Below the pieces are notes generated by a model. It worked only from the letters and a program-made list of their open reading frames with translations. It ran no database searches and was not told the origin of the DNA. From Thelephora terrestris (Eukaryota; Basidiomycota; Agaricomycetes; Thelephorales; Thelephoraceae), in the NCBI GenBank assembly GCA_015956445.1, contig WIUZ02000007.1, positions 1,674,001 through 1,738,000 on the forward strand: DNA of 64,000 bases, given 5' to 3'. The position numbers and the translations under genes were made by a program. This document shows positions 15,602 through 64,000 of this stretch, one piece after another. How positions within the stretch are numbered: the first letter of the stretch is position 1; every line of letters starts with the position of its first letter.

Positions 15602-15889
15602 TTATTGCCGTTCTCACGAAAGTTGGCGCGGCGGTTTTTTCCACTATTTTTTTCGATCACTCTTATACTTTTGCGCCCGCCCCACTCGACGTCCAGTACC
15701 TCAACGACTCAACTGACGCGCTCGATTTCCATGGCGTCTTGATGGCTTCGTTGAGGGCTTTCGACCAACATTGAGTTTCTCCCGAAATTCCGATCTTGGA
15801 CTTTCGTTACCTTCCAACCTGTTCGGCCTTCATCTCCTCAACGCTTGTGATTTTCGGCTTGGGGGTGATCCCAACGTCTTTCAGTGAGT
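15602..15889 (+). repeat. Left arm of a 288-bp near-perfect inverted repeat
   Basis: This stretch is the reverse complement of 16334-16621 with only a few mismatches over 288 bp (two in the ~165 bp I compared base by base). The arms begin near GTTATTGCCG and stop inside CAGTGAGT, after which the sequences diverge. The arm contains a short Pol II-like leader (TATACTTTTGCG, then ATGGCGTCTTGA) and a hydrophobic frame (FISSTLVIFGLGVIP). The 444-bp spacer 15890-16333 is single-copy here. No target duplication could be identified at the outer ends. Confidence 0.9.
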
Positions 15890-16333
15890 GTGCACTACAT
15901 CTCTACATTGATTTTTCAACAACCTGTCATGTTTGCCACAGCTTTGAGTCTGCTGAAACCTCCGGTAAATACAGGCATCCAGGCACAAAACCTAGCCTCC
16001 CAGTGACCCCAGTATTACTCCTGGCACCCACGAGGAGGGTATTCAATGGAATTTCCAGTCAGTACATAACGGCGCAGGTGAAATTGAGACCCCCGGACAC
16101 AAACCAAGCAGAACCTCTTTTTAGCTAACATGTTTATTCTGTTATCCGTGGTACATTTTACTGCTTTGTACTGCTTTGGGACGAGTAATAGACAGGGTTT
16201 CTCGTAATCTAGACTTCTCTGTGGTCACCTCACAATGACACTCCTGGCATGCAGGACTGCCCCCGTCGAATGATTTCACTGTATCACACAGCATGTTAGA
16301 AACGCAGAAACTCAATGTGACAATGTAATGTAA

Positions 16334-16621
16334 ACTCACTGAAAGACGTTGGGATCACCCCCAAGCCGAAAATCACAAGCGTTGAGGAGATGAAGGCCGA
16401 ACAGGTTGGAAGGTAACGAAAGTCCAAGATCGGAATTTCGGGAGAAACTCAATGTTGGTCGAAAGCCCTCAACGAGGCCATCAAGACGCCATGGAAATCG
16501 AGCGCGTCAGTTGAGTCGTTGAGGTACTGGACGTCGAGTGGGGCGGGCGCAAAAGTATAAGAGTGATCGAAAAAAATAGTGGAAAAAACCGCCGCGCCAA
16601 CTTTCGTGAGAACAGCAATAA
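16334..16621 (-). repeat. Right arm of the 288-bp inverted repeat
   Basis: Mirror of 15602-15889. With its partner it would fold as a long hairpin with a 444-nt loop. The sequence outside the arm (16622-16809) is unrelated to the left flank. It contains a T8-plus run and the 3' flank of NTF2-like paralogue D. Confidence 0.9.
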
Positions 16622-22199: not shown

Positions 22200-25100
22200 A
22201 GCTTGAGCTTGGGGTGTCAAATGTCTGAGGCAGTCTCATGCGTCGCCTGGGATGGAGAAGTGGAGCGTACGTACCTGTGTGACGCGGCCCAGCGGCAGCT
22301 TATCATCACCATGGTCGCCGCCTGTCGTCGCGTCAGTCACCATTCCTACATCCAACAGCATTCAAGTGGAAGACCGAAATCAAAAACAAGGAGCACTATC
22401 CAAGCGAGCAAGAGACTATAAATTGACATACTACCCACACGGTGTTTCCGCGGAGGGGTTCGGAAAATTTGAGGAATGCGAGACTTTTTGTTATCATCGC
22501 AAACTTCGGACATTGGACACTATCGTAAATTGGACGAGGACGTAGGCAGCCTCAAGGTCATGGTTTCATGACGACGGCCCCGCGCTTGGGATATGAGGAA
22601 CCCTAATCCATGGTGGACTGCGAGATCACGCTCACGGCGGTGCTAGGCTACAACGAGGACCCCTTGCCCTGCCTTCCTTAGTCCTTGTGCTGCCCGTCGA
22701 ACTCTGGAATTGGAACCGCCTGCGATGTCCACTTCAAAAGTCTTACAACGCTTCTATTCACTCAATACTTTTTCCCCTGATGTCTCACGCTGCCTATACT
22801 ACTTGTTTCGAAGTGATGATGAAGAACACTATTTGACCACTCTTCAAGGATCGGAGTTGACTCGCCTCGTCGATTTCCTTGATGAAGTGCGTTCCTCCAT
22901 TTCCGCCTCCTTCCAGCTGACAGAACAGATTTCACAGATCCTTGATGTCACTCTGAATACCGATGACGCCTTCCAACGATGCCTACACAAACTACGAACC
23001 ATTTGTGGCCATCGTGTGATCCTGCCATCTTCTTATACGATTTCGGGCGATCTCTCCCGAGTCGGTAATGACCCGGTCAGCGGCGGCAGTTTCTCCGATG
23101 TATGGAAAGGCACCCACAACAGCTGCAAGGTCTGCATCAAGGACCCGAGGTTTCATCTGCAAAATTGTGACGCTGTTGAGAAGGCAAGTATTTAGTATTG
23201 GCTTATAAGTATCCCTGCTAAAAGACAGGATCGTCACGTACTAGTCATTTTGCAAGGAGGCGATCACGTGGAAGAGGTTGGAACATCCGAATGTTGTTGC
23301 TTTCATTGGCGTTACGCGAAATCCCCTGCAAATTGTCTCAGAGTGGATGCCAAATGGTACTCTCAGGGAATACGTCAACAAGAATCCAGGCGTAAACCGG
23401 GTTGGCTTGGTGAGTATTTCGTCCGCAACCAGGACCTGACTGTCAATATTTTCCAAGTTGTTGGATGTGGCAGAAGGTCTCAACTACCTTCATGCAAACC
23501 ACACAACACACGGAGACTTGAAAGGGGCAGGTTCCCATTCCATGTCGTTTTCGACTGCATCGATGACCCTTGACTAGCCAAACGTTCTCATCGACTGCAC
23601 CGGCCATGCCTGTCTGGCAGATTTTGGCCTCGCCTCAGTTGTTCGTGGGCTGGGCTCTGTTCTCATAACAGAAGTACAGGGATATACCAAAAGGTGGGCT
23701 GCACCGGAGGTTCTCGGGAGTGGCGACAGAAGCACTCGAGAAGCGGACGTGTTTGCTTTTGGGATGGTTGTTATGAAAGTCAGTCGTCGCATCTCCCTAC
23801 ACCTGGTATTGGATGTGGAATGGTTGCCTGATGCTTGAACCTTTCAAAGGTTTTTACAGGAAAGAGTCCCTTCAGCGAGTTTAATCACAATGTCACGGTG
23901 TTGAAGATTATAAGCGGCGAACAGCCAGATCGTCCGCGAAAAACGGGTCTAACAAACTCAGTATGGGAACTAACACTTGCTTGTTGGCAACAAGACCCCG
24001 CTTGCCGGCCCGCAATGGCGGAAGTGGTTGGGATTCTTCGCGAATGGCCAGTACATTTTACCCTTCTGGAACCGCCACTATAACATACTTCTGCTTCCTG
24101 CAGCTATAGGCCATTTTTTGCCACAGACTTACACCCATCCAACATAAGTCGAGCACAACCGGTGAAGAGATCAGTCAGGGCAAAAGACATCGATTGCGGT
24201 TATTATCCACTTAACCCGTTCGCTGCTCGTGAGACAGTCAATCCACATCTCTAACCTTCCCACAGTTACGACACCCCCCGGATTTCCAAATGCTTACCAG
24301 CGCTTCAATGAGCTTTCAAGGGTAACACCGCCCGCTATGTCTCCTCCTAGTTCTGATCATTCTGTTTAAGGGACTCGCGAACAAAAAGGAAGGGCCGAAG
24401 GGTGATCGTTATATCGAGCTCTTGCGGTTGTGTACTCTCTGGCACACAGTCCCAACTTCATACGAACTTGGGGATGTCATGAGGCAAGGTGATAGTGCCC
24501 TACAGGTCTCCGGGGTGACCGAGATTTGGGAGGGTCTGTACGACGGTGAGGTTGTGGCGCTCAAGGTTCTTAGGCTGCCCCAAAACAATGATGAGGCGGC
24601 GGGGGAGCGCAAGGAGTGCGAAGACGATTCTCACGCAATGACGTACGAACAGGTAAGCGTGTGGTACAACTCCCAGTAAGATGCTTGTTTGTCGTTGTGC
24701 TGAAAAATGGTATAGCGGTTTTGCGCTGCTGCGGTTCTGATGAAGCAGATCGAACACGCCAACATTCTCCCTTTCTATGGGGTGTCAATGACCATCTCCG
24801 ACTTCTCTCTCGTGTTTCCCTGGTACAAGAATGGAGACATAAAACAATATCTGAAGACGAATCCTCACGTAGATCGATATGACTTGGCAAGTACATCCAA
24901 GCTGATCGAGTATTCCCGACACTCACGTGAACCTCATAAACAGTTATTGAGTGCGGTCAAAGGATTGCGCTTCCTGCATTCCAATGGAGCAGTTCACGGC
25001 GCCTTTTGGCCAGTACGTGAAACTTTCTCCCTCGTTGATAAAACTTAACACCCTGAATAGGATCACATATTGATCGACGACGACGGTAATGCCCAATTAA

Positions 25101-25805
25101 CAATTGCCATACCTGACACACCAACTATTGCCATATCTGACAAGTCGACTATTGCCGCACTTCTCTCGCGACATACCCGTCTGGCCGGGACCAGTGACTT
25201 CCCTTATGGGGTACCAGAAATAAAATCGATGGAAAGCGATGTGTATGAAATGGCCATCGTCATTTACGAGGTAAAATTCTACAGATTCATATCATCCTAC
25301 CCGAGGACTAAATCTCTCGTCGGCTTACTAGGTTTTGACGGGGATTGCCACGTACTGGAGTGGTCGAAATTACGACCGGGCATTTCCGGTGATGCCCGCA
25401 CAGCCTCCTGGAGCGTTTGATGACCTGTTCTGGGGGCTTCTTGCGAAATGCTGGAGGAGGAGCACCCAGGAACATCCACCGATCGATGAAGTCTACCGTA
25501 TGCTTAAGTCACGTCCCAAAGTCATCCACACTTCTCTGGGGCGGTTTTCACTGTTTGGAGGGAGTCCACAGAAGTTTGAGTAGCATGTTCACGGGGTTAA
25601 ATTTCCAGACGGCCAGCCACCTTCGCAGGAATATTATGTCAGGTTTAAGTGTAGAAACGCAGAATACACGACTTCTCCGATAAATCTTCGAAACGATTGG
25701 GGCAAATACACATGGTATGTACTCCGTCCATTTCAACTTTTGTCGCTACTGCTAAGTCCCGCCCAGGAAAAGCCCGCAAAACTGGGTGACAGAAACAGTT
25801 GGACT
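22200..25805 (+). repeat. Kinase duplication unit, copy I
   Basis: This segment matches 39240-42860 (copy III), starting in the promoter region (shared ggagcgtacgtac and cgcctcctgtcgtcgcgtca-like blocks near 22260-22340 and 39300-39370) and running through the whole kinase gene. Its right end continues beyond an insertion at 28602-29040. The duplication therefore included upstream DNA as well as the gene. A partly decayed third unit (copy II) lies at about 29640-37370. Confidence 0.85.
22725..25583 (+). CDS. Tandem kinase-pseudokinase protein, copy I, truncated by TAG
   Basis: The start at 22725 gives MSTSKVLQRFYSL and a helical pre-kinase part. A 51-nt intron (from 22887) leads to LPSSYTISGDLSRV. 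Domain 1 has SFSDVWKG, the beta-3 Lys in KVCIKD, helix-C FCKEAITW, HGDLKG, LADFGLAS and AAPEVL: complete for catalysis. A donor at 24051 and an acceptor CTATAG at 24104-24109 splice in phase to AIFCHRLTPIQHKSS, then to GFPNAYQRFNELSR and a second kinase domain. Domain 2 keeps VVALKVLR and MKQIEHANILPFYG but its catalytic loop is VHGAFWP and the DFG site reads LTIAIP: a pseudokinase. The donor after VEK is GCAAGT. The frame ends at TAG 25581, where copy III has TTG (Leu) inside a C2-like domain. If the 24051 intron were retained, the protein would stop at 24083 after domain 1. Confidence 0.82.
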
Positions 25806-26260
25806 GTAAGGTAGGGCTCATTCAGTTTCGACCAATTCCACATGGCAACCTCCCCGCCAAAGCGTGACAAAATGTGACAAAAAACCCTTGAAATACACAA
25901 AAGAATCAAAATCTCCCTCGTAGAGTACTTGCAAAGAAAATTGTCTTGGAGAGGTGTTGAGAGAAGCATCTCAAACAATTCTTCAAGACTGTCACGAACG
26001 CGTGACATAGTAGCCAAGATCACACAAGTAATTCGAGACATTGGTCTCATTCGTAGTAGTAAAAGTACAAAAACGACTAACAGAAACTACAAACTCAAAC
26101 AAGAACGAACGGGTCCACATCACAAGCACAGTCCTGAGCGAACGGACAACGATGAGCGAAATGATGGGGGTTATGAGCGCTCTGAGGGCAGTACGAGTAC
26201 GCTCGCATTACCGGATCCTGCCAACACTCCCTGCACCCCAATACATCGTGAAACAAGCTG

Positions 26261-26992
26261 TCATGCATCTCCCTCTTCACGTCCGTCAACGCCGCGCTCA
26301 CCAACGCGAACCCATAGCGGTCCTGGAGACCCGCTACCTCCACTTTCAGCTTCATTCGAACCTGACGTGATTTGTCGGAGGGACGACAGCGTTGACCAGT
26401 ACGAGCTATCGGATTCTTGTGCTCTTTCTTCTTCTGGGTCCTCACCACCATCTGACGGCTCGGAACAGGACTCCAAGGAGGGGACTGAGGAAGAGGGACT
26501 CCCTGATCGCGAAGGTGGCGGAGGGACAACGGGGGAGTGAGAAGCTGCGTCGGTGCAGTATGCTCCATGGCATCAAAGACCGAAGTACCGGAGGAGAGAT
26601 TCCTGGAAAGGTTTCCAATGTTCCAAGGCGAAGTGAGAGAAGTCTTCGTTAAGACTGTTAACGACCACATACATGACGTCCATCCTCTTCTCCAACTTCA
26701 GAATCCTATCCTCCCTCTCCTGCTCCATCGCATCCTGCAAGGGAGTGACCCCAGGAGCCCACCGCAGAGTCTTGTTGGGGTCGTCGTATCTAGCTTGCTC
26801 CCAAAACTTGGCGGGAGCATTGTGAGCGGTCAGGAAATCCACGGCAACCTGGTTGTCATGAGCGATGTTGGCGGGGGAGTCATATAAGTGTTGCTCCATG
26901 TCGTAGGGAGCGTCCGTCTCGAAGGACGGAGAAAGATCGAAGGGGGTGGCGGCAGCATTGAGCAGAGCACTGTTAGCGGCGTAGGCAGACAT
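26261..26992 (-). pseudogene. Element leftward gene, copy 1, broken by TGA
   Basis: 244 codons from ATG 26992 (MSAYAANSALLNAA) to stop 26261, the same length as the copy in the second element. The N-terminal half has FETDAPYDMEQHLYD, NIAHDNQVAVDFLTAHNAP and a coiled-coil-like EQEREDRILKLEKRMDVMY. The C-terminal half is Pro/Ser-rich then acidic (DPEEERAQESDSSYWS). Codon 140 is TGA (26573-26575) where the other copy has CGA, leaving a 139-residue product or none. I do not recognise the protein. A role as a structural (Gag-like) or DNA-binding factor is only a guess from the coiled coil. Confidence 0.7.
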
Positions 26993-27081
26993 AATAGCAA
27001 AAGTGGTTTGGAGAAGAGGTGATAGTAATGTTGGAAGGGAAAGAAAAAGAGACGATGGGGGAAAAGACCAATAATCCTCCT

Positions 27082-27092
27082 GGATTATATAC
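27082..27092 (-). promoter_or_regulatory. TATA box of the element's leftward gene
   Basis: Reads GTATATAATCC on the minus strand, about 90 bp before the ATG at 26992. The same box precedes the leftward gene in the second element (around 31215). Confidence 0.55.
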
Positions 27093-27194
27093 GACTGACT
27101 CAATAAGACGCCCAAGAAGGAAAACAATAAGATATTACTCATTAAAGTCCCAATTAGGATAAAACAAACCCTCAGCCCCAATCGCGAATCCATC

Positions 27195-27345
27195 AAATCC
27201 TGGGAAATCCCCATTGATCACAGGAAATCCCCACCGGACTTCTATTGCTACCCTGAAACGAGAGAAATCCCCATCCATCATGGGAAATCCCCAACCGTCT
27301 TCTATTACTACCATGAAACGTGGGAAATCCCCATTGTACTCCCAA
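27195..27345. promoter_or_regulatory. Cluster of GGGAAATCCCC motifs between divergent promoters
   Basis: At least five copies of (G)GGAAATCCCC, spaced irregularly and alternating with CTTCTATTACTACC-type spacer. The motif is a near-palindrome. The second element keeps a matching cluster at about 31330-31465 although the surrounding bases have drifted. Looks like a bidirectional operator/enhancer for the two element genes. Confidence 0.6.
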
Positions 27346-27498
27346 TGATTCATTCGCTATTATTCCTTTATTTCATATTCACTCGTCGCACGAAAAGTCC
27401 CGCTTCTCTGACTCATTGACCCTGCCCTAAACTACGCACGGACCACGTTGGCCCCTGTTTGACTCGTTGTAGAATAATGACTCCTGTAGAGGATTGGG

Positions 27499-27505
27499 TA
27501 TATAA
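27499..27505 (+). promoter_or_regulatory. TATA box of the element's rightward gene
   Basis: TATATAA within GGGTATATAAGGAAGAGCG, conserved exactly in the second element near 31632. About 150 bp before the ATG. A likely 5'-UTR intron (27579-27629, GTAAGC...TTTTAG) lies between and is kept as 31716-31764 in copy 2. An AATAAA lies just upstream of that intron in both. Confidence 0.6.
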
Positions 27506-27650
27506 GGAAGAGCGTTCGCTCCTTTCTTTCCCCATTCTCAATCTCTTCTGTACTCCTCTACCCACAACCTGAATAAAAGTAAGCCTAAAGGAATTCTCCT
27601 CACGGCTTACCTCATCTGACTCATTTTAGCAGGAATCCTCCTGCCAGTGT

Positions 27651-28274
27651 ATGTTCAGTGCCCCCAACCCCTTCCCCTCTACAAGTCCAGTCCAGCGACC
27701 AGTCGTCCCTGACGCTAGGAGATCTATCTGGGAGTATAAACTCATCAGAAGTCTTCAAGTAAACCGAACCACCGGTTTACTCACTCATTTCCCTTACTAC
27801 CGACCCTTTGCAGCTCTCGACGCCGGAGTCACGACTCCCCCTTTTCTCCTAGGAGCAGATCACCAATTCCTTTGGAATTCGGATCTTACTGAGAGCGTCC
27901 TCGCGACTGTCTACTTCAGTATCAGCCCAGCCTTTTACTTCCCCTCCCCACGTGTTCATCTCACCACTAACATCCACACCCATTCTCCGGCTATCATTGT
28001 TCTTTGGTGGGAGATCCCAACTGAATTACCTTATTCAGTTATAGAATACCTCGTCAATTTCGAACGCCTTAGCGACCAAGACTTCGAACCTTTTGTGCAG
28101 CAACTCAACCAGTTCTGCCAAGACTACCACTCACCCGTTCACCCTTACCAGACAGAGTCACCCCTCTCTCTTGACATTCCTCCTCCCCTCGTTTCCACAC
28201 CCGGAACCCCTTTCAAAACTAGACCCGACACCCCTCACCCCTCCGCTAATCCTCTAGCGCCCCACAAACAGTAA
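27651..28274 (+). CDS. Element rightward gene, copy 1, intact, unknown function
   Basis: 207 residues from ATG 27651 to TAA 28272-28274. Visible sequence: a Pro-rich start (MFSAPNPFPSTSPVQRPV), a middle with predicted strands and aromatic runs (TGLLTHFPYYRPFAALD, FYFPSPRVHLTTN, IIVLWWEIPTELPYSVIEYL), and a Pro/Thr-rich tail (DIPPPLVSTPGTPFK). No signal peptide, TM or catalytic motif that I know. The copy in the second element is nearly the same protein although many third codon positions differ, so it was under selection for its product. It ends only 20 bp from the element's right end. Expression would start at the TATA box at 27499. Confidence 0.72.
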   Translation: MFSAPNPFPSTSPVQRPVVPDARRSIWEYKLIRSLQVNRTTGLLTHFPYYRPFAALDAGVTTPPFLLGADHQFLWNSDLTESVLATVYFSISPAFYFPSPRVHLTTNIHTHSPAIIVLWWEIPTELPYSVIEYLVNFERLSDQDFEPFVQQLNQFCQDYHSPVHPYQTESPLSLDIPPPLVSTPGTPFKTRPDTPHPSANPLAPHKQ

Positions 28275-28601
28275 GCAGGCCCACAACCCTGACAAAGACA
28301 GATTTTGAGTAATCGTGCTGCACACTGAGATTTTGAGTCCCCAAGGAGGCCGAGATGAGCATGGACTGGGACGATGCACAGTAACCAAACATAACTCTAC
28401 CTTGTGAACCTTGAGTGATATTGCCTCCCGATTGATGTTAGGGTACATAGCTTCTTATTCTTAGTCTACCTATATCCCTATAACCACTTTCTTCCCTACC
28501 TTAGTTTTTCTTAGCCACGAGGTTTTTTTCTCGGGATGCCGCCAGTCACAACTGTCACGCCCATGTGGAATTGGTCGAGACTGAATGAGCCCTACCTTAC
28601 A

Positions 28602-29640
28602 ATTACACAGATATCTCATTGGAATTGGTCGTGTGGACTGGCTTGACACGCAAGAGTGAGAAAGTTTACGCGAGCGGACATCCACCCGTACGTCTAATTA
28701 CCGGTCCGTGACCGCGAACGTTGTTGACCGTCCATGTCCAGCCCATAACAAGCTCCAATGAGCACATCGTAGTTGCCCTCCTCGACGGGGTCATGGTAGC
28801 AGCAAAGGTCTTGATATTGGTGATCACTACGTAGCTGTCTGCCACCTTAGTGGAGTCCCATCCCCTCTCAAACCTTTCCAACGGTCATCCCGGAAAACAT
28901 GTTTAATACTGTTGTGGTTCAATTCAATGGGCCCTGGGGGTATCATGTAATTAAATCCTCTCTTATATTATGCGCAATGCCGCGGCGAACTTGAAGTTGC
29001 TGTGAACTGGACGTATTATCGTCACAGCCTCATCATTGAAACTCCTTCTGAGGTTCATTAATTTTGACTAATGTATGATCTTGATCAAGGCACGAGCCGA
29101 GTTCAATGGTATACATTGGACAATAGGGGTGTTGATAGTTGCAGTGGCAGCAGTATGGCCACAGGTGCAGCTGCTGATTAAGTGATCGAGTTCTCTTAGT
29201 TGGTTTCCATCTCGCTCATTCTTTGGGCCGCCCGCAAAAGCCCGCACTATCCTACAGCTGCCAGCCAATGGCTACCAGACTGTCACAAAAGCTCGTTGTG
29301 GTTTCCCGCGGCTCAACTGCTGCGCTGCTAGCCACTCAACACTCGACCAAGGACAAACCTCTGATCGTTCTTGTTCCCGCTCCTACCGAGGGGGTCAGTT
29401 TGGGTGTCGCTGCGCTCAAGCGCAGTGGCAACGTTGAGGGGAAAGTTCCTGAGAGGGGTTCGCAAAAACGGGGCTTCTTGTCTATGCCACCCGCGTATGG
29501 CAACTTTTAACCCAATCGTATGGTCACGGACTAAACTGAGAAGGATGAAATATGAAGTATCAAGTTCATAGAAGGGTATCATATCGGATCGTGCTTGGCA
29601 TAATTGGCCCCCTCAATTGACAATGCACGTGGTGCACTGC
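28602..29640. other. 3' remnant of copy I and spacer
   Basis: 28602-29040 matches the last exon and 3' flank of the kinase unit (compare 42930-43310). From 29040 to 29640 I see no duplication. An open frame at about 29270-29510 (MATRLSQKLVVVSRG...) has no recognised domain and I do not call it a gene. Confidence 0.45.
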
Positions 29641-30388
29641 TGCTCATAGTTGTGCTGGCTGCCATCGAGATTTTGCTATCCTAGGGTAGAACTCTGCATC
29701 CCCTGCTTTGCCTCCATTGCTCCTCACTCCACCAGTGGACGTAGACTCCCACAACATCTACTTCTCAAGTCTTATGTCACCTCTACTCACTCAACACCTC
29801 TTCTCCTGATTTTTTGCGCCATCTCTACTGCTTGATGCAAGCCGATGACGAAGATCAGTATTTGTCTATACTTCAGGGATTGGAGCTGATTCGGCTTGTT
29901 GATTTCCTTGATGAAGTGTGTTCCTTTCCTTTAACGACTTTCCAGCTCACAAAACGGACTATATAGATCGTTGAAGCCACCCCACTCACGGACGATGTCT
30001 CCCGACGATGCCTCCACAAACTACAAACCATCCACATACACCATTTCAGGAGACCTCTCTCGGCTCAATGAACAGCCGGTCGACTTTGGCGGTTTCTCCG
30101 ATGTATGGGAAGGGGCTTGTCACGAATGCGTGACATATTGTCCAAAATCACACAAATAATTCAAGACATTGTTCGCATTTCTGGTAATAAAAGTACAAGG
30201 CGAGCTAACAGGTATTACAAGACTAGACCAGGACAAAGGGGTCTATGTCACAAGGACAGTCCTGGGGAAATGGACAACGATGAGCGAAGTGGTGAGGGTT
30301 ATGTACGCTCTGAGGACAGTACAAGTACACCCGAGTTACCGGATCCTGCCAACACTCTCTACATCCCAGCACATCGTGACAAAAACTC

Positions 30389-31120
30389 TCATGCATCTCT
30401 CGATTCACGTCCGTCAACGCCTCGCTCACTAACGCAAACCCATAGCAGTCCTGGAGACCCGCCACTTCCACTTTCAGCTTCATCCGAACCTGACGTGACT
30501 TGTCGGAGGGACGACAGTGTTGACCAGTACGAGTCATCGGACTCTTGCGCCCTTTCTTCTTCTGGGTCCTTGCCACCATCTGACAACTTGGAACAGGACT
30601 CCAAGGAGGGGATTGAGGGAGGGGAACTCCCTGATCGTGATGGCGGCGGAGGGACGATGGGGGAGTGGGGAGCTGCGTCGGTGCAGTAGGCTCCGTGGCA
30701 TCGAAGGCCGAAGTATCGGAGGAGAGCTTCCTGAAAAGGTTTCCAATGTTCCAAGGCAAAGTGAGAGAAGTCTTCGTTGAGACTGTTGACGACGACATAC
30801 ATAACATCCATCCTCTTCTCCAACTTCAGAATCCTGTCTTCCCTCTCTTGCTCCATCGCGTCCTGCATGGGGGTGACTCCAGGAGCCCATCTGCGAGTCC
30901 TGTTGGGATCTTCGTACCCAGCTTGCTCCCAGAACTCGGCAGGAGCATTATGAGCGGTCAGGAAGTCCACGGCAACTTGGTTGTCATGAGCGATATTGGC
31001 AGGGGTGTCGTACAGGTGCTGCTCCACATCGAAAGGAGCATCTGTCTCGAAGGACGGGGTAAAGTCAAAGGGGGTGATGGCAGCGTTGAGAAGAGCGGCG
31101 TTGGCAGCGAAAGCAGACAT
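30389..31120 (-). CDS. Element leftward gene, copy 2, intact, unknown function
   Basis: 243 residues from ATG 31120 (MSAFAANAALLNAA) to the stop at 30389. Same layout as copy 1: an N-terminal FETDAPFDVEQHLYD, NIAHDNQVAVDFLTAHNAP, FWEQAGYEDPNRTRRWAPG, then EQEREDRILKLEKRMDVMY, a heptad-like charged helix, SHFALEHWKPFQEALLRYFG and a disordered acidic tail (DPEEERAQESDDSYWS, SGSDEAES). Here codon 140 is CGA, so the frame is open. No known catalytic motif; no signal peptide. It may bind DNA/RNA or self-assemble through the coiled coil, but this is inference. Confidence 0.7.
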   Translation of the reverse strand: MSAFAANAALLNAAITPFDFTPSFETDAPFDVEQHLYDTPANIAHDNQVAVDFLTAHNAPAEFWEQAGYEDPNRTRRWAPGVTPMQDAMEQEREDRILKLEKRMDVMYVVVNSLNEDFSHFALEHWKPFQEALLRYFGLRCHGAYCTDAAPHSPIVPPPPSRSGSSPPSIPSLESCSKLSDGGKDPEEERAQESDDSYWSTLSSLRQVTSGSDEAESGSGGSPGLLWVCVSERGVDGRESRDA

Positions 31121-31785
31121 AATAAGCAGAGGTTGACTTAGGAGAGTAGTGGTGGATGGTTTGGTGGGAATGGAAAAGAGACGATGAGAGGAAAAGACCA
31201 ATAATCCCCCTGAATTATATACATCCAAGTCAATAGGACACCCAAAGGGGGAGACAATAAAACCATCACTCATCAAAGTCCCAATTAGGGTAAATGAACC
31301 CTCAGCCCCAATCGTGGTCCCATCAAACTCTGAGAACTCCCCACCGATCATGGGAAATCCCCACCGTGCTTCTATTACTACCGTCGACCTAGAGGAAATC
31401 CCCATCGGTCATGAGAAATCCCCAGCACGCTTCTAATACCACCGTAAAACATGGGAAATCCCTTAATGCTTCCATCAGCCCGGTCCTCCTATTGTTCCCG
31501 CATTAATAATTACCATTTGTCGTCCTAAGTCCCCCCCGACCTGACTCATTCAACCTACCCTAAACTACGCACAGACCATGTTGACCCCTGTTTTGTTCAT
31601 CGTAGAATTATGACTCCTGTAGAGGATTGGGTATATAAGGAAGAGCGTTCGCTCCTTTCTTTTCCCCATTCTCAATCTCTTCTGTACTCCTCTACCCATA
31701 ACCTCAATAAACAAAGTAAGCTGAGGAATACTCTTCACGCCTTACTCTTTCTGACTCATTCAAGCAGGAATCCTCCTGCCAGTGT

Positions 31786-32409
31786 ATGTTCAGTGCTCCC
31801 GATCCATTCCCCTCTACCAGTCCCATCCAGCGCCCCATCATACCAGACACCAGGAGATCTATCTGGGAGTATAAGCTTGTCAGAAGTCTTCAAGTAAACT
31901 GAACAGCCGGTTTACTCACTCATTTCCCTTATTATCGTCCCTTTGCAGCCCTCGACACCGGAGTCACTACTCCCCCTTTCCTCTTAGGAGCCGATCATCA
32001 GTTCCTTTGGAACTCAGACTTTACTGAGAGTGTTCTAGCAACCATCTACTTCAGTATAAGTCCGGCTTTCTACTTCCCCAACCCTCGCATCCATCTTACC
32101 ACTAACGTCCATACTCACTCCCCTGCCATTATCGTTCTCTGGTGGGAAATCCCAACTGAACTACCTTATTCTGTTATAGAATATCTCGTTAACTTCGAAC
32201 GTCTCAGCGACCAAGACTTCAAACCTTTCGTACAGCAACTGAGTCAGTTCTGTCAAGACTATCATTCACCTGTTCACCCTTATCAAACCGAGTCACCACT
32301 CTCGCTTGATATTCCTCCTCCTCTTGTCTCCACACCCGGAACTCCGTTCAAAGCCCGACCCAACACCCCTCACCCTTCCGCTAATCCTCTAGCGCTCCCC
32401 AAACAGTAA
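31786..32409 (+). pseudogene. Element rightward gene, copy 2, broken by TGA
   Basis: 208 codons from ATG 31786 to TAA 32407-32409, collinear with copy 1. Codon 39 is TGA (31900-31902) where copy 1 has CGA. The remaining 169 codons stay open and the protein is almost unchanged from copy 1, so the nonsense change is recent relative to the divergence. The TATA box and the 5'-UTR intron (31716-31764) are still in place. Confidence 0.7.
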
Positions 32410-34272
32410 GCAGGCCCACAACCCTGACAGGGCTCACAACGGCAGCAAGGTCTGCATCAAAAACTTGAGGGTTTCTGAGCAAGTCCATGAAGCTGTTGAG
32501 AAGGCAAGTGTTTGGTGTTAGATTACCTCCCCCCTACTGAAAGGCGTCACTGCCACGTAGGCGTTTTACAGGGAGGCGATCATATGGAAAAGGTTGAGAC
32601 ACCCAAATATTGTTGCTTTCATTGGCGTTTTGGAACATCCCTTGCAACTTGTCTCGGATTGGATGCCCAATGGAACGATAACGGAGTACATCAATAAAAA
32701 TCCGGGTGCAAACCAGGTTGGCCTGGTGAGTCATTCTCCTGTAGTCAGCACTTGACTGACCTCTTTCCTCTCCAAAGCTGTTGGAAGTGGCAGAAAGCCT
32801 CGGCTATCTTCATGCAAATCACACATCGCATGGAGACTTGAAAGGGGCAAGTTCTCACCCTACTTTGTTTTAACCCGCATCATCAACCCTTGACCAGCCC
32901 AACATTCTTGTTGACGACAGTGGTCGTGCCCGTCTGACAAATTTTGGCTTCGCCTCGGTCGTTCGTGGGTTGAGCTCCGTTTTTGTGAGTGAAGTATATG
33001 GATATACTGCCAGGTATGCTGCACCTGAGGTTCTCGAAAGGGGCGATAGAAACACTTGAGAAGCAGACATCTTTGCTTTTGGGATGGTTGTGGTTGAAGT
33101 AAGTCGTTGCACCTTTCTCCACCTAACATTGAGTGTGGAGAGATGCCTGCTCTGCCTGACACTTGAGCCCTATTCAAGGTATTCACAGGAAGTTGTTTGA
33201 TTCTTCGTGAATGGTCAGCGCCTTTTCTCTTCCCGGAACCATCATCACGACTTATTTGTGCCTCCCGCAGCTATAGGAGAAGTACCGCGGGTCGGCTATT
33301 ATTCAGCCTAAGTCCGCCACAACAGGTGAGGACTCTGGCAGTCAAGATCAAAACAACCTTTGATTACGGTAATTATCTACTGGGCATAGTTTGCTGTATG
33401 CAACGTGCACAATCTACACTTCTAAATGTCCTACAGTTACGGCGCCCCTTGGCTTTCCAAGTGCTTACCAACATATCAACAGGGTTTCAGAGGTAATGCC
33501 CCTCACAATCTCTCTCCCCAGCCCTGATCAGTCTATTCAAGGAACTCGCGACAACCAATGAGGGTCTGAAGGGGAAATACTTCGCTGAGCTTTCGCAGTC
33601 GTGTCTTTTCTGGCGTGTAGTACCGGCGTCGTATGAACTTGGGAAGATCATCAGGCGGGGGGACCATCCCCAATCCATCGTCACAAAAGAGACTGAAATT
33701 TGGAAGGGTGTGTACAATGGTGAGGCAGTGACACTCAGGGTCCTCAAGGTGTCCCAAGACAAATCTGGCGTGGAAATGGCCAAAGTAAGCCCAGTGAGGG
33801 GCTCGCTGGTTTCTGTGCTGAAAGATGGCATAGTGATTTTGCAGGGTGGCAATTGTGATGAAGCAGCTCGAACATGTCAACATTCTCCCTTTCTATGGGG
33901 TGTCAACAACCATCTCCGACTTCTCTCTGGTGCATCACGAAAACAGAATTCACTTTCAAGGGCTTAAGGCGAAAGTGACCAAAGTTTCATGCCCATTTTA
34001 GAGCACTCGAAAGTGACCGGGCCTCTTGAAAGTGCTGTCAAAGTGTCCCAAAGGAAGACAAAGCAAACAAAAATCGCCACTCGCCTGTCAAAACATTCAG
34101 TCACTGATTGTCGCTTCAGGTCATCCAATGGATAGTTCAATAGATATATTTCTTTTACACTACACTATATCTATCACAAATAAGTATGGTAACACGCCCT
34201 TCATGAAAATGCGAGTCGCTTGGCGTCCATAAGGAGGACAGTAACGCTGAGATTGGAGACAACGGTAGGAGC

Positions 34273-39239: not shown

Positions 39240-39790
39240 GTCGACATTTGGGGTGTCGAACGTCCAAGTCAGACTTTCACGCGTCGCCTGGGACGGAAAA
39301 GGGGAGCGTACGTACATGTGGGATGCGGCCCCATGGCCTGATGCTATTCTGGTCGCCTCCTGTCGTCGCGTCACTCAGACTACAAACTGAGATACTAACC
39401 ACAGTATTTCCAAGGTCATAGAAATGATTCAGAGCGTCAGATTGGGAGTTACAGTGTTCAATGCGATGAGGATACTGAGGTGTCCAGAAAATTTCGGGAA
39501 ATTCGAGGAAAGCGAGACTTTTCATCATCATCGCAAACGTCGACGCGGATGTCCAACTCACTGATCGCGGATGGAAGGCAGCCTCAAGGTCGCGGGTGGG
39601 GCTGCGTCTCATGACGACGACCCCATGCTTAGGATGTGAGGAGACCGTATACTCTAGTTATTCATACTTATAGTACTTCGTGGCGGCATGCCAATTGCAG
39701 CGCCAGGCTGCCACGAGATACCCGTCCCTTGCCCTCAACACTCATTGCAATTGCGCTGCCCATCAAACTCTGGAAGTGGAATCGCCCACG

Positions 39791-41158
39791 ATGTCCACTG
39801 CAAAATTCTTAAAACGCCTATATTCACTTGATACTTCTTCTCCTGATTCCTTGCGCTGCCTCTACTGCTTGTTCCGAAATGATGATGAAGAACAGTATTT
39901 GACTACTCTTCAAGGATCAGAGTTGACTCGCCTCATCGTTTTCCTTGACAGGGTGCGTTCCTACTTTTTGGCTTCCTTCCAGCTTACAGGGCAGATTGTG
40001 CACAGATCCTTGATTCCACTCCAACTACTGACGACGTTTTCCGACGATGCCTACACAAACTACGAACCATTTGTGGCCATCATGCGATCCTGCCATCTTC
40101 GCATACAATTTCGGGCAAGCTCGCCCGAGTTGGTGATCACCCGGTCAACTTCGGCGGTTTTTCTGATGTATGGAAAGGCTCTCACAACGACCGCGATGTC
40201 TGCATCAAGTACCTGAGGCTTCCTGAGCAAACTCGTGAGGTTGTTGAGAAGGTGAGTATTGTGTATTGGCTTATCTACCGAAAGTTGCTATCATGATCAT
40301 CGCGTAGTCGGTTTACAAGGAGGCGATCACGTGGAAAAGGTTGAAACATCCAAATTTTGTTGCTTTTATTGGTGTTACGCGAAATCCCTTGCAAATTATC
40401 TCGGACTGGATGCCAAATGGAACCTTAAGGGAATATGTCAACAACAACCCGGGCGCAAACCGGGTTGGCTTGGTGAATTTCTCCTCTCCAACAAGTGATC
40501 TACCGACAACTTATACTTTCAAGTTGTTGGATGTGGCAGAGGGTCTCGACTACCTCCATGCAAACCACACAACGCATGGAGACCTGAAAGGGGCAGGTCC
40601 TCTTTCTACTTTACTTTGGCCTGCATCAATGACTCTTGAATAGCCTAACATTCTCGTTGACTATACCGGTCGTGCCTGTCTGGCGGACTTTGGCTTCGCT
40701 TCAGTTGTTCGTGGGTTAACCTCCATTCCCGTGACAGAAGTACAGGGATACACCGCAAGGTGGGCCGCACCGGAGGTTCTTGGGAACGGCGATAAAAACA
40801 CTCGAGAAGCAGACGTGTTTTCTTTTGGGATGGTTGTGGTGGAGGTCAGTCGTCGCGCCTCGTTGCACCTGGCGTTGGATGTGGAGTGATAGATGGTCTA
40901 CCTGACACTTAGTCTCTATTCAAGGTCTTCACAGGAACGTGTCCTTTCAGCGAGTTCACGGCCAACTTCACTATTTCGAAGATTATGGACGGTGAACGGC
41001 CAGATCGTCCGCAAGAACCGGGTTTAACAGACTCAGTATGGGACATAACACGTACTTGTTGGAGCCAAGACCCTGGCCACCGGCCCACGATGCCGCAAGT
41101 GGTTGGGATTTTTCGCGAATGGCCAGTAAACTTTCTCTTGACGAGACCGCCATCATGA
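39791..41158 (+). CDS. Kinase domain of copy III (active-looking)
   Basis: The start at 39791 gives MSTAKFLKRLYSLD, a helical pre-kinase region, a 53-nt intron, then ILDSTPTTDDVFRR, LPSSHTISGKLARVG, GGFSDVWKG, DVCIKYLRL (beta-3 Lys) and donor GTGAGT. Following exons give ITWKRLKHPNFVAF, MPNGTLREYV, YLHANHTTHGDLKG, CLADFGFAS, WAAPEVL, EADVFSFGMVVVE, CPFSEFT and a C-lobe ending WPVNFLLTRPPS, TGA 41156. The HGDLKG loop and DFG are complete. In copies I and II an intron starting after EWP joins this domain to a pseudokinase through an acceptor CTATAG. Here that acceptor is CTATAT (41179-41184), so read-through to the second half is doubtful and I place the end at the retained-intron stop. Confidence 0.75.
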
Positions 41159-41340
41159 CACACATTCGCCTCCTGCAGCTATATGACATATGCTGAAGAC
41201 CTACAGCTATCCAGCCTAAGTCGACCGCAACCGGTAAAGAGAGCAGTGAGCGCAAAAGATGTTGACTGCGGTACTTATCCACTTTCCACAGTTCGCTGCC
41301 CGTGACATGGACAGTCCACATCTCTAACCTTCCTACAGCT

Positions 41341-43108
41341 ATGATGCCCCTCGGCTTCCCAAGCGATTATCGGCGCATCAACGAGCTTTCATGGGTAACC
41401 CCATTCACTATGTCTCCTCCCGGCTCTGATTATCCTGTTCAAGGAACTCACGAACAGAAAGGAAGGGTTGAAGGGGGAACGTTATATCGAACTCTTGCAG
41501 TTGTGTACTCTCTGGCACACAGTCCCAACGTCATATGAACTTCCGGGTGTTGTGAAGCAAGGAGACCGCGCCCTACACGCCTCCATGATGACCGAGATTT
41601 GGGAGGGAATGTGTGGTGGTAAGGTGGTGGCGCTCAAGGTTCTTAGGTTACACAAAGGCAAAGTTAATAGTGATGCCGAGGCGCACAAGGATCTCGGACT
41701 TCCCGAACATTACCCTGACATGGCCAAACAGGTAAGCATGTTGTATGACCCCAAGCAGGGGGCTCGTTTGTCGTTGTGCTGACGGATGTTGTAGCGGTTT
41801 TGCGCGGCAGCAGTCATGATGAAGCAGATTGAACATGCCAACATTCTCCCTTTCTACGGGGTGTCAACGACCGCCTCCAGCTTCTCCCTGGTTTTCCCTT
41901 GTTACCAAAACGGCAACATCGATCAATATCTGGAGAAGAATCCTGATGTAGATCGATATGACTTGGCCAGTGTATCCAATCTGACCGTTTTCCAACAACG
42001 CTCACGTGAACCTCACATACAGATATTGGGTGCGGCCACAGGGTTGAGGTTCCTACACTCTAATGGAAAGTTTCACGGCGCTTTTCGGCCAGTACGTGAG
42101 ACTTTGTTGTCATCGACGAAGCTCAATACCCTGAACAGGATCACATACTAATCGACGACAACGGCAATGCCCGATTAGAGATTGCCATACCTGACATGCC
42201 AAATGTCGCCATATCTCCAAGGTCATTAGACCTCGCATCTCGCTCGCAATACCCTGTACTCGGACTCGAGGACTTCCCTTACGGGGTACCAGAAACCAAG
42301 TCAATGAACGGCGACGTGTATGAACTGGCCATAGTCATCTACGAGGTGAACTGCTACAAATTCAAACCATCTTGCCCGAGAACCAAAACCCACATCGGCT
42401 TCCCAGGTTCTGACAGGGATACACACGTACTGGGAGGGAGGTGATCACGACCAGGAATTTCCGGTGATGCCCGTGCGCCCCCCTGGAGCGTTTGATGACC
42501 TTTTCTGGGGGCTTCTTGCGAAATGCTGGAGGAGGAGGCCTATGGAACGCCCACACATGTATGAAGTCTATGGCACAGTCAAATCGCGTCCCAAAGTCAA
42601 ACGCGCTCCTTGGGGGCGGTTCGAGGGCCCAGAGTCTCGGAATGAATATGAGTTGCATATTCACGGGATCAAATTTCGAAACGGCCGGCCACCTTCGCAG
42701 GAATTCTATGTCAAGTTCAAGTACGGAGAAAAAGGCTACACGACTTCTCTGACAATTTTTCAAAATGATTGGGGTGAATATACATGGTTTGTGCTCCATC
42801 CATTTTAACTCTCGCTGCTACAGCTAAGTCTCCACCCAGGGACAGCCCGCAAAACCTGGTGATAAAACACACCGGCCGGTCTGCTGTTTTGGTGGAGGTA
42901 TCCTTGGTAATGGTCGTACGGAGTGGTTTACGCAAGAGCGAGAAAGTTTACGCGATAGGAATTTCGTCCGTAAGTCTATAACCACTCTGTGACGCGAACA
43001 CTGTTGACCATTCGCGTACAGTTCCTGCCAAACCAGCACATCATAGTTTATCTCACAGACGAGCGCATGGTATTGGCGAAGGTCTTGATATTGGTGACAG
43101 CAACGTAG
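41341..43108 (+). CDS. Pseudokinase plus C2-like half of copy III
   Basis: In the ancestral arrangement this is the second half of one gene with 39791-41158. From ATG 41341 it reads MMPLGFPSDYRRINELSW. A 49-nt intron (GTAACC...TTCAAG) gives ELTNRKEGLKGERYIELL, then VVALKVLRLHKG, MKQIEHANILPFYG, HGAFRP for the catalytic loop (no Asp), LEIAIPD at the DFG site, SMNGDVYELAIVIYE and CWRRRPMERPHMYEV. So it is a pseudokinase. The C2-like end has ELHIHGIKFRNG, QEFYVKFKYGEKGYTT and NDWGEYTW, spliced to DSPQNLVIKHTGRSAVLVEV and finally HIIVYLTDERMVLAKV, ending at TAG 43106. Whether it is made separately or fused to the kinase needs transcript data. Confidence 0.65.
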
Positions 43109-43587: not shown

Positions 43588-44498
43588 CTAATCGTCGTCG
43601 TCGTCGTCAGCCGTGAGTTCCCCAAGGAAGGAACTCGTCAAGGGTCCTAGCGCCATTTGACCGTCAACCATTTTCTTCAGTATTTTGAGTGGAATACGAC
43701 ACTCACTTCCGGCACTCTGTGAATGCTTTCCCCGGTACGCCATCAACGGCGAGCTCAACAGCGGTGAAGGTGAAGGTGGCACACTCGTAGACATCGACGC
43801 GTTGGAATTAGTCGAGTCATTAAAAGTGGAAGCGGCCGGAAACTTGTAGTTTAACGTCCTCGATGGGGTTGAGACTGGTGAAGTCAGGTATGTCGAGGAA
43901 GAAAAGGTGGAAGAAGCAGGGTTGAATGGTTTTTGTTTCTGTGGCGTCACCTTCTAGAAGGGGTTTAGTGAGTACACACGGATACATTCAAAGTCAAGAT
44001 TCAAGGACGTGCCGCAGGTGAAAGGATCTTGGATTTTGACACGGCCGGTGAGTTGAATGAGGTGTTGAAAGGTTTCACCGGCGTGGGCATAGATGGGAAT
44101 GGGTCCCTAGGGTACTTCAGTGCGAAGGCAGATTGGAATATCGACATCAGGAGCAGCGAGCAGACGCCTCCCTCTACGAAACCAAGGTGTTTTTAACAGG
44201 CTGAAAGAAGGCTCATCTTCAAACACGCACCAATGAGTGACATCGTCCACCACCAAAGCCCTGTCTCTTCCCCATGCCTGTTATTGCCGCCCCCAGCACG
44301 CGATTTCGAGGGCGTTGGTTCGGGAGTGACCGCGTTCCAGACGACGGTAAGCGATGAGAGTATTGAGGGCAAAGCAGTTGAGAGGTTGGTGATGACGAAC
44401 AGGACTGCGAGAGCGAGCAGACTGTTTCGCAATCGTAAGGCGGCTTCGTTGGGTCGTGGTTTGAGGAAATCGAGGAAAGTGAGATTGCTCTTCGTCAT
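43588..44498 (-). CDS. Two-TM protein with Ser/Thr-rich tail, possibly Pom34/NPCC-like
   Basis: Start at 44498 (MTKSNLTFLDFLKPRPNEAA). The first hydrophobic segment is NSLLALAVLFVITNLSTALP. After WWWTMSLI an intron (GTGCGT...TTCGTAG) joins EGGVCSLLLMSIFQSAFALK, the second hydrophobic segment. A further intron leads to KVTPQKQKPFNPASS, SSSTYLTSPVSTPSRTLNY and a tail ending in six Asp before the stop at 43588. Two close TM segments and a Ser/Thr/Pro tail with TPSRTLNY-like motifs recall the fungal pore membrane protein Pom34 (NPCC family), but I am not certain. It shares a 287-bp divergent promoter region with the SRA gene. A broken, inverted copy lies at 63360-64000. Confidence 0.6.
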
Positions 44499-63359: not shown

Positions 63360-64000
63360 CCTCTGTATCTTACTTCCTCAAATTTTCCAAATCCCGGCCC
63401 AATGAAGCTGCCTTACGACTGAGAAACATTCCGCTCGTTCTCGCAGTCTCACCGATCGCTCAACTATCTTCCCCTCAATACTTTCGTCAATTACCATCGT
63501 CTGGAACGCGGTCACTCCCGAACCAACGCTCTCGAAATCGCGTGTTGGGGGCGATAACAACAGGCATGGGGAAGAGACCGGACTACGGTGGTGGACGATG
63601 TCACTCATTGGTGCGTGTTTGAAGATGAGCCTTCTTTCAGCCTGTTAAAAACACCTCGGTTTCGTAGAGAGAGGCGTGTATTCGCTGCTCCTGATGTCGA
63701 TATTCCAATCTGCCTTCGCACTGAAGTACCCCAGGGACCCGTACCCATCCATGTCCACGCCAGTGAAACCTTTCAACACCTCATTCAACTCACCGGCCGT
63801 GTCAAAATCCAAGATCCTTTCACCTGCGGCACGTCCTTGAATCTTGACTTTGAATGTATCCGCGTGTGCTCACTAAACCCCTTCTAGAAGGTGACGCCAT
63901 AGAAACAAAAACCATTTAACCCTGCTTCTTCCACCTTTTCTTCCTCGACATACCTTACTTCACCAGTCTCAACCTCATCGAGGACGTTAAACTACAAGTT
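63360..64000 (+). pseudogene. Inverted, frame-broken copy of the two-TM gene, cut by window edge
   Basis: The reverse complement of 43840-44495 at about 90% identity by eye, including the introns. It keeps FLKFSKSRPNEAALRLRN, but a small deletion in the first hydrophobic segment (around 63450) shifts the frame, and there is no ATG where the parent has one. It stops being visible at the window edge while still matching. The parent's divergent SRA gene is not duplicated here: similarity begins inside exon 1. Confidence 0.8.

Follow-up and report, generated by a model that had tools for sequence, protein, structure and literature searches.

The locus raises the question of whether a 2.3-kb gene-carrying unit, present twice in a 64,000-nucleotide stretch of the Thelephora terrestris genome (the window), is the long terminal repeat (LTR) of a retrotransposon or a mobile element in its own right. 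The unit is probably an LTR from a retrotransposon of the Ty3/gypsy type, present here in solo form.

Two copies in the window

Both copies were located where the first-pass annotation had placed them (Table 1), with the TGTCA...TGACA ends and the 5-bp target duplications AAGAC (el1) and GGGCT (el2) that it had described. Both start with TGTCACGAAYGCGTGACATA (2 matches in the window against 0.00 expected) and end with CAACCCTGACA, and they are 82.7% identical to each other. Removal of el2 together with one GGGCT produced a gapless alignment to two paralogous kinase-like genes of the window (143 bp at 77% and 181 bp at 73%), and el2 is therefore an insertion. Two open reading frames had been claimed for each copy; the rightward frame is complete in el1 (207 aa + stop) and the leftward frame in el2 (243 aa + stop), but one frame is broken in each copy, leftward frame A in el1 (stop after 139 codons) and the rightward frame in el2 (stop after 38).

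Table 1. Positions of the two element copies and their predicted features in the window, with an example of the 3.3-kb LTR found elsewhere in the genome
Feature	Position	Strand	Details	Basis
el1, element copy 1	25990..28294	+	2305 bp, TGTCA...TGACA	sequence, copy alignment
el1 left target duplication	25985..25989	.	AAGAC	flank comparison
el1 right target duplication	28295..28299	.	AAGAC	flank comparison
el1 left gene, frame A	26573..26992	-	139 codons, then premature stop	
el1 predicted 70-nt intron	26603..26672	-	GTATGT...CAG; retained = A, removed = B	
el1 frame B	26095..26602	-	open; C-terminal part of spliced isoform	
el1 TATA box of rightward gene	27499..27505	+	conserved across copies	sequence
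el1 predicted 5'-UTR intron of rightward gene	27579..27632	+	acceptor 27629 or 27632	sequence
el1 right gene R	27651..28274	+	intact (207 aa); stop lies 20 bp before element end	
el2, element copy 2	30118..32429	+	2312 bp, inside kinase-like gene copy	
el2 left target duplication	30113..30117	.	GGGCT	
el2 right target duplication	32430..32434	.	GGGCT	
el2 left gene, frame A	30389..31120	-	243 aa, intact	
el2 predicted 70-nt intron	30731..30800	-		
el2 frame B	30223..30730	-	open; C-terminal part of spliced isoform	
el2 TATA box of rightward gene	31632..31638	+	conserved across copies	sequence
el2 right gene R	31786..32409	+	stop after 38 codons	
3.3-kb LTR, example	L033:90-3396		plus 7 more gag-bearing copies	

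Copies in the genome

A pattern search located 228 exact right ends in the genome; the pattern misses about 25% of ends, owing to its last letter, and the total was extrapolated to ~300. BLAST matches extended to 30 right and 27 left ends, and every one of these has the TG...CA terminus; the terminal inverted repeat is 5 bp only (TGTCA/TGACA). The first-pass annotation had allowed that copies elsewhere might lack target duplications. This was not the case: an exact 5-bp duplication flanks 20 of the 21 testable complete copies, the remaining copy matching at 3 of 5 bases (103/105 bases identical overall), against a chance expectation for identical flanking 5-mers of ~1 in 1024 per copy. A genome sample contained 59 left ends with a right end on the same strand no more than 20 kb away, and in 47 of these cases the two ends shared the exact 5-mer; 32 of the 47 pairs span 2,177-2,377 bp and the other 15 are longer. 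The copies are young, having been neutral for ~4% of terminal branch time and having nearly unaltered duplications. Several are annotated by NCBI as ordinary hypothetical proteins. No relatives were found in the viral contigs searched, and no description of the unit in a literature search of titles and abstracts.

Genes of the 2.3-kb unit

Purifying selection on the rightward gene, R, is very strong, with a median dN/dS of 0.048 and a median dS of 0.525. Promoter-like features and the predicted 5'-UTR intron were examined in 21 copies, the search pattern having missed a twenty-second. The conservation claimed for the TATA box and the 5'-UTR intron held up, with TATATAA and the intron donor kept in all 21 copies examined; a candidate polyadenylation signal reads AATAAA in 18 of them and AATACA in 3. 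R stops 20 bp before the element end, so that a terminator would hardly fit, which is what a read-through U5 would lead one to expect.

The leftward gene is dual-coding, and a conserved, predicted 70-nt intron would decide which protein is made, A when it is retained and B when it is removed. This intron is conserved in 21 of 22 copies and its junction is identical in six T. terrestris gene models. The earlier count of two genes was too low, three products being predicted; the second overlapping left frame had been missed. The frames are conserved coding genes and not random open frames, the other outcome against which the annotation had guarded. A plus-strand frame running from the left end is free of stops in 19 of 22 copies; with a dN/dS of 1.08 it was rejected as a further gene.

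The reported lack of resemblance to a known transposition enzyme was borne out in three databases. R, A and B had no match in Pfam, the unit's proteins had none in PHROGs, and a PDB sequence search returned only weak matches (best E 0.019), none of them to such an enzyme. Pfam detected neither gag nor any member of the PR-RT-RH-IN series in the unit and no transposase in R, A or B. A DDE cut-and-paste transposon would be expected to have terminal inverted repeats as well, but only TGTCA/TGACA is inverted here. Structure models of A and R were too poor to support a fold comparison (mean pLDDT 52 and 38).

A 3.3-kb LTR with similar ends

A Ty3/gypsy retrotransposon of the same genome has LTRs of 3.3 kb that begin TGTCA[C/G]GAAC and end CCCTGACA, nearly the termini of the 2.3-kb unit. 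The family has 5-bp duplications and several hundred mostly single copies. Gag/CCHC, protease and reverse transcriptase come after the LTR, and an integrase (rve) match lies 3.9 kb past the LTR end in the element on contig C4. Of 10 gag hits, 8 are close copies, and each of these has the same LTR end and flank. The two LTRs of the C4 element are identical at 308/308 compared bases, the element is flanked by the duplication ATCAC, and the purine-rich tract GGAAGAGGATAA precedes its 3' LTR; a 12-nt complementarity between the internal start and the LTR suggests self-priming. The 3.3-kb unit is thereby proven to be an LTR around gag-PR-RT-IN. Approximately 390 LTR ends compare with 8 gag-bearing copies, a ratio of single LTRs to gag-bearing elements of ~45 to 1, and 297 right ends were retained under a filter like that used for the 2.3-kb unit.

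An antisense frame in the 3.3-kb LTR has a dN/dS of 0.22, compared with 1.8 and 1.1 out of frame in the same region, and is stop-free in 7 of 8 copies (5 complete single LTRs, one 5' LTR and two cut by the stretch edge). Gene-bearing giant LTRs therefore exist in this genome. The two units are alike in termini, 5-bp duplications, hundreds of mostly single copies and an antisense frame. They differ in that no DNA similarity was detected at E 1e-5, the sole match being the 2.3-kb unit's own flanking piece; the antisense proteins look different by eye; no rightward gene was recognised in the 3.3-kb LTR; and the 3.3-kb family has 8 gag-bearing copies.

Search for a full-length 2.3-kb element

Two copies around gag-pol had been proposed as the mark of an LTR. 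A clear case was obtained for the similar 3.3-kb unit, which shifts the balance to the LTR reading, but none for the 2.3-kb unit: comparison of 245 right ends with 144 integrase hits gave no clear gag-pol flanked by two copies, using a pattern that misses ~25% of ends. If full elements were as frequent relative to single LTRs as in the 3.3-kb family, ~6 would be expected, and zero has a Poisson probability near 0.002. Right ends within 9 kb upstream of integrase hits were on the same strand in 9 cases and on the opposite strand in 2, which favours the LTR reading. The single integrase hit with same-strand right ends on both sides was C17:209787; the nearer of its upstream copies is bordered by a 5-bp duplication of its own, and the farther one, at 7.1 kb (flank at C17:216881), is a candidate partner. 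Other candidate full elements are the integrase hits at C56, C59 and C60, each of which follows a right end on the same strand by 4.5-5.0 kb and has no listed right end downstream; the flanks concerned are at C56:1437874, C59:1198181 and C60:1468415, and their first bases are not uniform (one C, two A or T). Six pairs of right ends on one strand, spaced 7.5-7.9 kb apart, were considered as possible LTR pairs; in 3 of the 6 the second copy has its own duplication.

The first 100 of 228 right flanks contained no recurrent primer-site flank, the best same-offset pair matching at 12/18 bases (11 to 14 in column-shuffled sets), and none was seen in a set of 68 selected for a TGG no farther than 8 nt away. 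Purine tracts at the left end were present in 10 places with no long tract common to all, and at least those at C11, C12:2535208 and C6 are explained by an own duplication or a nested insertion. The tract AGAAGGGAAR before the left ends C6:158904 and C12:2831113 was rejected as a candidate: the C6 tract is internal sequence of another copy in inverted orientation, and near-identical letters indicate that the C12 tract is probably the same.

A longer autonomous form was sought among spans of 4.7-15 kb with matching duplications, and six of the 15 longer spans were examined, no parent element being recognised among them. Four spans of 5.4-5.6 kb are a 2.3-kb unit with a nested 3.3-kb LTR, at various positions and in both orientations; a 13.9-kb span contains a complete 3.3-kb-LTR retroelement; and a 15-kb span, partly fetched, contains at least a nested inverted copy.

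Nature of the unit

The two alternatives named at the outset, a gene-carrying giant solo LTR and a separate class mobilised in trans, were the right ones to weigh. A giant gene-bearing solo LTR is favoured on the evidence of TG...CA ends, 5-bp duplications, hundreds of dispersed copies, conserved promoter-like sequence, three conserved frames and the proven 3.3-kb LTR with nearly the same termini in this genome. LTR membership is unproven, because paired copies around gag-pol, the key test, were not found, and it counts against this reading that the copies are young yet none was seen in full length. Low dN/dS and young copies were also considered as an argument excluding solo LTRs; this was dropped, the proven 3.3-kb LTR being much the same.

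As a solo LTR, the unit would derive from a full element inserted by a retroelement integrase with a 5-bp stagger, and recombination between the two very long LTRs would have left one, as in the 3.3-kb family. The left part would be a huge U3 with an antisense gene expressed as A or B through intron retention or splicing. Transcription would start near the conserved TATA box, and the genomic RNA would have R as its first open frame, before the primer site. The three products are putative accessory proteins that may aid element spread, through regulation, RNA handling or host counter-defence, and selection would have operated while lineages replicated.

It is possible, though clearly less likely, that the 2.3-kb unit is itself the transposing form and that its three proteins, R in particular, serve its mobility, strand transfer being performed by an unrecognised enzyme of its own or by a resident gypsy integrase sharing the end motifs. 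The single copies, most of the exact 5-mer pairs at unit length, the lack of a clear pair around gag-pol, and the young copies in many active lineages, as seen in R, are as this reading expects. So are the introns, the 5'-UTR intron being present in 21/21 copies examined and the 70-nt intron in 21/22; as both are retained, the copies were not made from spliced mRNA. Against it, no product resembles a transposase, integrase or reverse transcriptase, R leaves almost no terminator room and the terminal inverted repeat is so short. Diverse copies with intact frames also occur in the proven 3.3-kb LTR family, so no stand-alone unit is required. A new class, with LTR-type ends but no second LTR, retroelement-type strand transfer and its own three-protein module (R and the overprinted A/B) needed for spread, is a tentative proposal.

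The shared terminal motifs and 5-bp duplications would also fit a purely parasitic unit that the 3.3-kb-LTR gypsy element moves in trans and whose genes play no part in mobility (e.g. cargo), but this is very improbable given purifying selection on three frames in the sampled lineages, which is unexpected for passenger genes at hundreds of copies. A dispersed host gene family or an assembly artefact, for which the NCBI annotation might speak, is refuted by the empty site in the kinase paralogues and the exact duplications, with differing flanks and nested insertions also against it.

Even if the unit is an ordinary LTR, its conserved genes, including one that is overprinted in two frames with splicing as the switch, would mean that solo LTRs can persist by the hundred as small gene units. 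The system would offer a concrete fungal case for asking why accessory genes reside in LTRs, where every solo LTR retains them. If the unit stands alone, it would represent a class of mobile elements for which no replication route is known.

Comparison with known systems

Solo LTRs are usually regarded as dead promoters. In MMTV (sag) and HTLV-1 (the antisense HBZ), protein genes lie in an LTR or start there, and splicing produces variants; LTR-encoded genes, including antisense ones, and splicing would be common to these animal retroviruses and the 2.3-kb unit. Retroviral LTRs are not known to have three conserved products. TRIM and LARD elements are non-autonomous LTR elements with two LTRs and usually no coding genes; they share with the 2.3-kb unit LTR ends without an own reverse transcriptase or integrase, whereas the 2.3-kb unit is single and has coding genes. 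Retrosat2, RIRE3 and RIRE8 of rice are described, in the available portion of PMC3485330, as large LTR retrotransposons with LTRs of ~3 kb or more and an extra ORF0 of uncertain function, the inverted LTR ends of Retrosat2 and RIRE8 being TGTCACACCC-GGGCGTGACA. In the same portion, ORF0 is located before the gag-pol ORF and is not placed in the LTR, and full elements are known, in a plant (PMC3485330). Long LTRs, inverted LTR ends and an extra ORF are the features that these rice elements have in common with the 2.3-kb unit.

Copy number and sampling of the 2.3-kb unit

Thelephora terrestris is an ectomycorrhizal mushroom, and the genome assembly used (G000) comprises 40.6 Mb in 60 contigs. 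The window, at C58:1674001-1738000 of this assembly, holds two copies of the 2.3-kb unit, a mobile repeat with LTR-type ends, of 2305 bp (el1) and 2312 bp (el2), with ends and 5-bp duplications present. Right ends were located genome-wide with the pattern GGCCNNCAACCCTGACA, requiring any base but C at the eighteenth flanking position, which gave 228 matches; because this filter at the pattern's last letter drops one end in four, the total was extrapolated to about 300. A pattern with a comparable filter gave 182 left ends. A 243-bp probe was used to choose 20 stretches by best match, which makes the sample non-random; together with the window and a further stretch taken later, they supplied 22 complete copies (2248-2815 bp). 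Adjacent right ends 2-3 kb apart in this genome were in opposite orientation in 11 cases and in the same orientation in 4.

No paper describing the element by title or abstract was found in the literature searched, which included parts of PMC3485330, on Retrosat2, and of PMC7550596, on mycorrhizal genomes. The window also contains an inverted repeat of 314 bp (15602-16621, 97%, arms 392 bp apart) and another of 552 bp (43841-44392 with 63449-64000, 93%, 19 kb apart).

Features of the 2.3-kb unit, its host site and the sibling retrotransposon
Feature	Location	Strand	Remark
2.3-kb unit, el1	window 25990-28294
2.3-kb unit, el2	window 30118-32429
Overprinted left gene	window 26095-26992 and 30223-31120	(-)	frame A to frame B via predicted 70-nt intron
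Kinase-like gene copies in a row, at least 3 paralogues	window 22700-25760, 29757-33690, 39750-42900		middle one interrupted by el2
Sibling Ty3/gypsy element, 3,307-bp LTRs	L033:90-3396; C4:70589-82281; gag loci L034-L041

Target duplications and insertion sites

Identical 5-mers flank 20 of the 22 complete copies, 21 being testable and the flank of the remaining copy lying outside its stretch; in the exception, the copy of stretch L028, the flanking 5-mers agree at 3 of 5 bases. End pairing was scored in a separate sample of 78 of the 182 left ends and 100 of the 228 right ends. A same-strand right end lay within 20 kb of 59 left ends, and the exact 5-mer was common to 47 of these 59 pairs. 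The 100 right flanks vary between copies (best same-offset pair 12/18 bases; column-shuffled sets 11 to 14). The host site of el2 is a kinase-like gene copy, and the joined el2 flanks align gap-free with two paralogues; pieces of the first paralogue, the one searched against Pfam, gave matches to Pkinase and PK_Tyr_Ser-Thr. Two insertions, at C6:158904 and C12:2831113, have a nearly identical left flank, with 5-mers GGAAA and GGAAG. They apparently occupy the same spot within other copies, and the shared flank may reflect a target preference of the unit.

Coding capacity of the unit

The frame of the rightward gene, R, is intact in 18 of the 22 copies, with a median pairwise dN/dS of 0.048 (dN 0.0235, dS 0.525; 231 pairs); shifted by one base as a control, it gave 2.5 and was open in no copy. 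A search of 5.8 billion proteins returned 10 relatives of R at E up to 1 (seven JGI records; the single organism-named one from T. terrestris), and the same kind of search returned 40 for the left gene, both relying on shared short words and thus possibly missing distant relatives. The predicted structure of R has a mean pLDDT of 38, too low for a fold claim. Two RNA hairpins were predicted in the R leader (window 27579-27650; folding z -3.3). In hairpin one the splice donor GTAAG would pair with CTTAC, imperfectly in some copies; in hairpin two the predicted GCAGGA/TCCTGC pairing is kept in the 21 copies inspected.

The left gene is overprinted, with two same-strand frames, A (unspliced) and B (spliced), both under purifying selection. 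Frame A is intact in 19 of 22 copies (median pairwise dN/dS 0.20, 231 pairs). The A-only segment gave dN/dS 0.13 and dS 0.73 (shifted frames 1.8 and 1.3), and the B-only segment, open in 21/22 copies, 0.10 and 0.72 (shifted frames 2.0 and 1.5). Where A and B overlap, apparent dS drops to about 0.12-0.18 whichever of the two is read, as expected when both are constrained simultaneously; the remaining frame there is open in no copy (dN/dS 1.7).

The predicted intron, GTAYGT (GTACAT in one copy) to YAG, is present in 21/22 copies at equal length, and its excision would shift A to B with a product of 275-279 aa in 18/22. The other four comprise one copy each with a start codon misassigned by the script, a stop in B, a frameshift and no intron site. 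The junction is present in six predicted T. terrestris gene models (P0032, P0039, P0040, P0043, P0044 and P0046) and differs in P0038. In two of these public models the left gene is joined to foreign sequence. P0040 weakly matches copia gag (E 0.015, below cut-off), and the tail of P0044 looks, on visual comparison, like one frame of the 3.3-kb LTR described below. On our reading, B appears to include a basic segment and a terminus rich in Cys and His; a profile search gave no Pfam match for it. The predicted structure of A (mean pLDDT 52) is helical around residues 40-140, has a tail of low confidence and permits no fold claim.

Age of the copies

In the R tree, 358 synonymous, 96 nonsynonymous and 5 stop changes fall on terminal branches (omega 0.084), against 192, 28 and 0 on internal ones (omega 0.046). 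If the terminal excess is neutral decay, by our arithmetic about 4% of terminal time, or about 0.4% divergence, would have passed unselected. Across the 21 testable copies, the two sides of the target duplication match at 103/105 bases (a difference of about 2%), and whole-copy nearest-neighbour identity in the 22-copy sample is 82-96%. Taken together, the copies seem to be either recent insertions, derived from numerous lineages that are old, divergent and active, or copies still selected in place.

A sibling retrotransposon with gene-bearing LTRs

Nested inside 2.3-kb units is a 3.3-kb repeat with termini TGTCAGGAACATGG...GTAGAGTGGCCCTGACA, which is a true LTR. Downstream of it lie gag, with CCHC and Retrotrans_gag (just under cut-off), then protease and RVT_1; with the rve match 3.9 kb past the LTR end in the C4 copy, this is the Ty3/gypsy order. 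Of ten gag matches, two are distant (30-33% identity to the query) and eight close (97-100%); LTR ends were read for the close ones, and each of these has the sibling LTR end with identical flank. The LTR pair of the C4 copy agrees at 126/126 bases at the starts and 182/182 at the ends, with the duplication ATCAC and a purine-rich tract before the 3' LTR. The internal region starts with a 12-nt complementary match to the LTR, possibly a self-primer match, which we take to recall Tf1-type self-priming.

The right end occurs 297 times under a comparable filter, extrapolating to about 390 LTR ends against 8 gag copies. A minus-strand frame of the LTR, probably part of a multi-exon gene, gave dN/dS 0.22, as against 1.8 and 1.1 in the shifted frames, and is stop-free in 7/8 copies, with terminal and internal omega alike (0.23 and 0.28; 7 copies). 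A further minus-strand frame, which overlaps the first, is open in 8/8 copies, with dN/dS just 0.60. Many of the single LTRs read have intact frames. As the sibling is a proven LTR with a selected minus-strand frame, giant gene-bearing LTRs are real in this genome.

LTR or stand-alone unit

The 228 right ends and 17 from another listing were compared with 144 integrase matches (155 candidates, 5 unscored), and no clear case of gag-pol between two 2.3-kb copies was found in this comparison. A right end lay within 9 kb upstream of 9 integrase matches on the same strand versus 2 on the opposite strand. One match, C17:209787, has unit ends on both sides; the nearer upstream copy (in L021) is a single copy with its own duplication, and a farther one lies 7.1 kb upstream. 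About 6 full-length elements would be expected at the sibling's single-to-full ratio, if that ratio applies, and their absence favours a stand-alone unit; the right-end pattern drops one in four ends, and would miss every full-length element if the internal region has C there. We regard a stand-alone unit as possible but rather unlikely, and an LTR as the moderately probable reading. Judging by the ends and duplications, a retroelement integrase would insert the element, and solo units would form as in the sibling, whose ratio of LTR ends to gag suggests this route. The LTR reading is favoured by the scant room for a terminator after R and by the likeness to the sibling, which shares its termini with the 2.3-kb unit and, like it, has an antisense gene in the left part.
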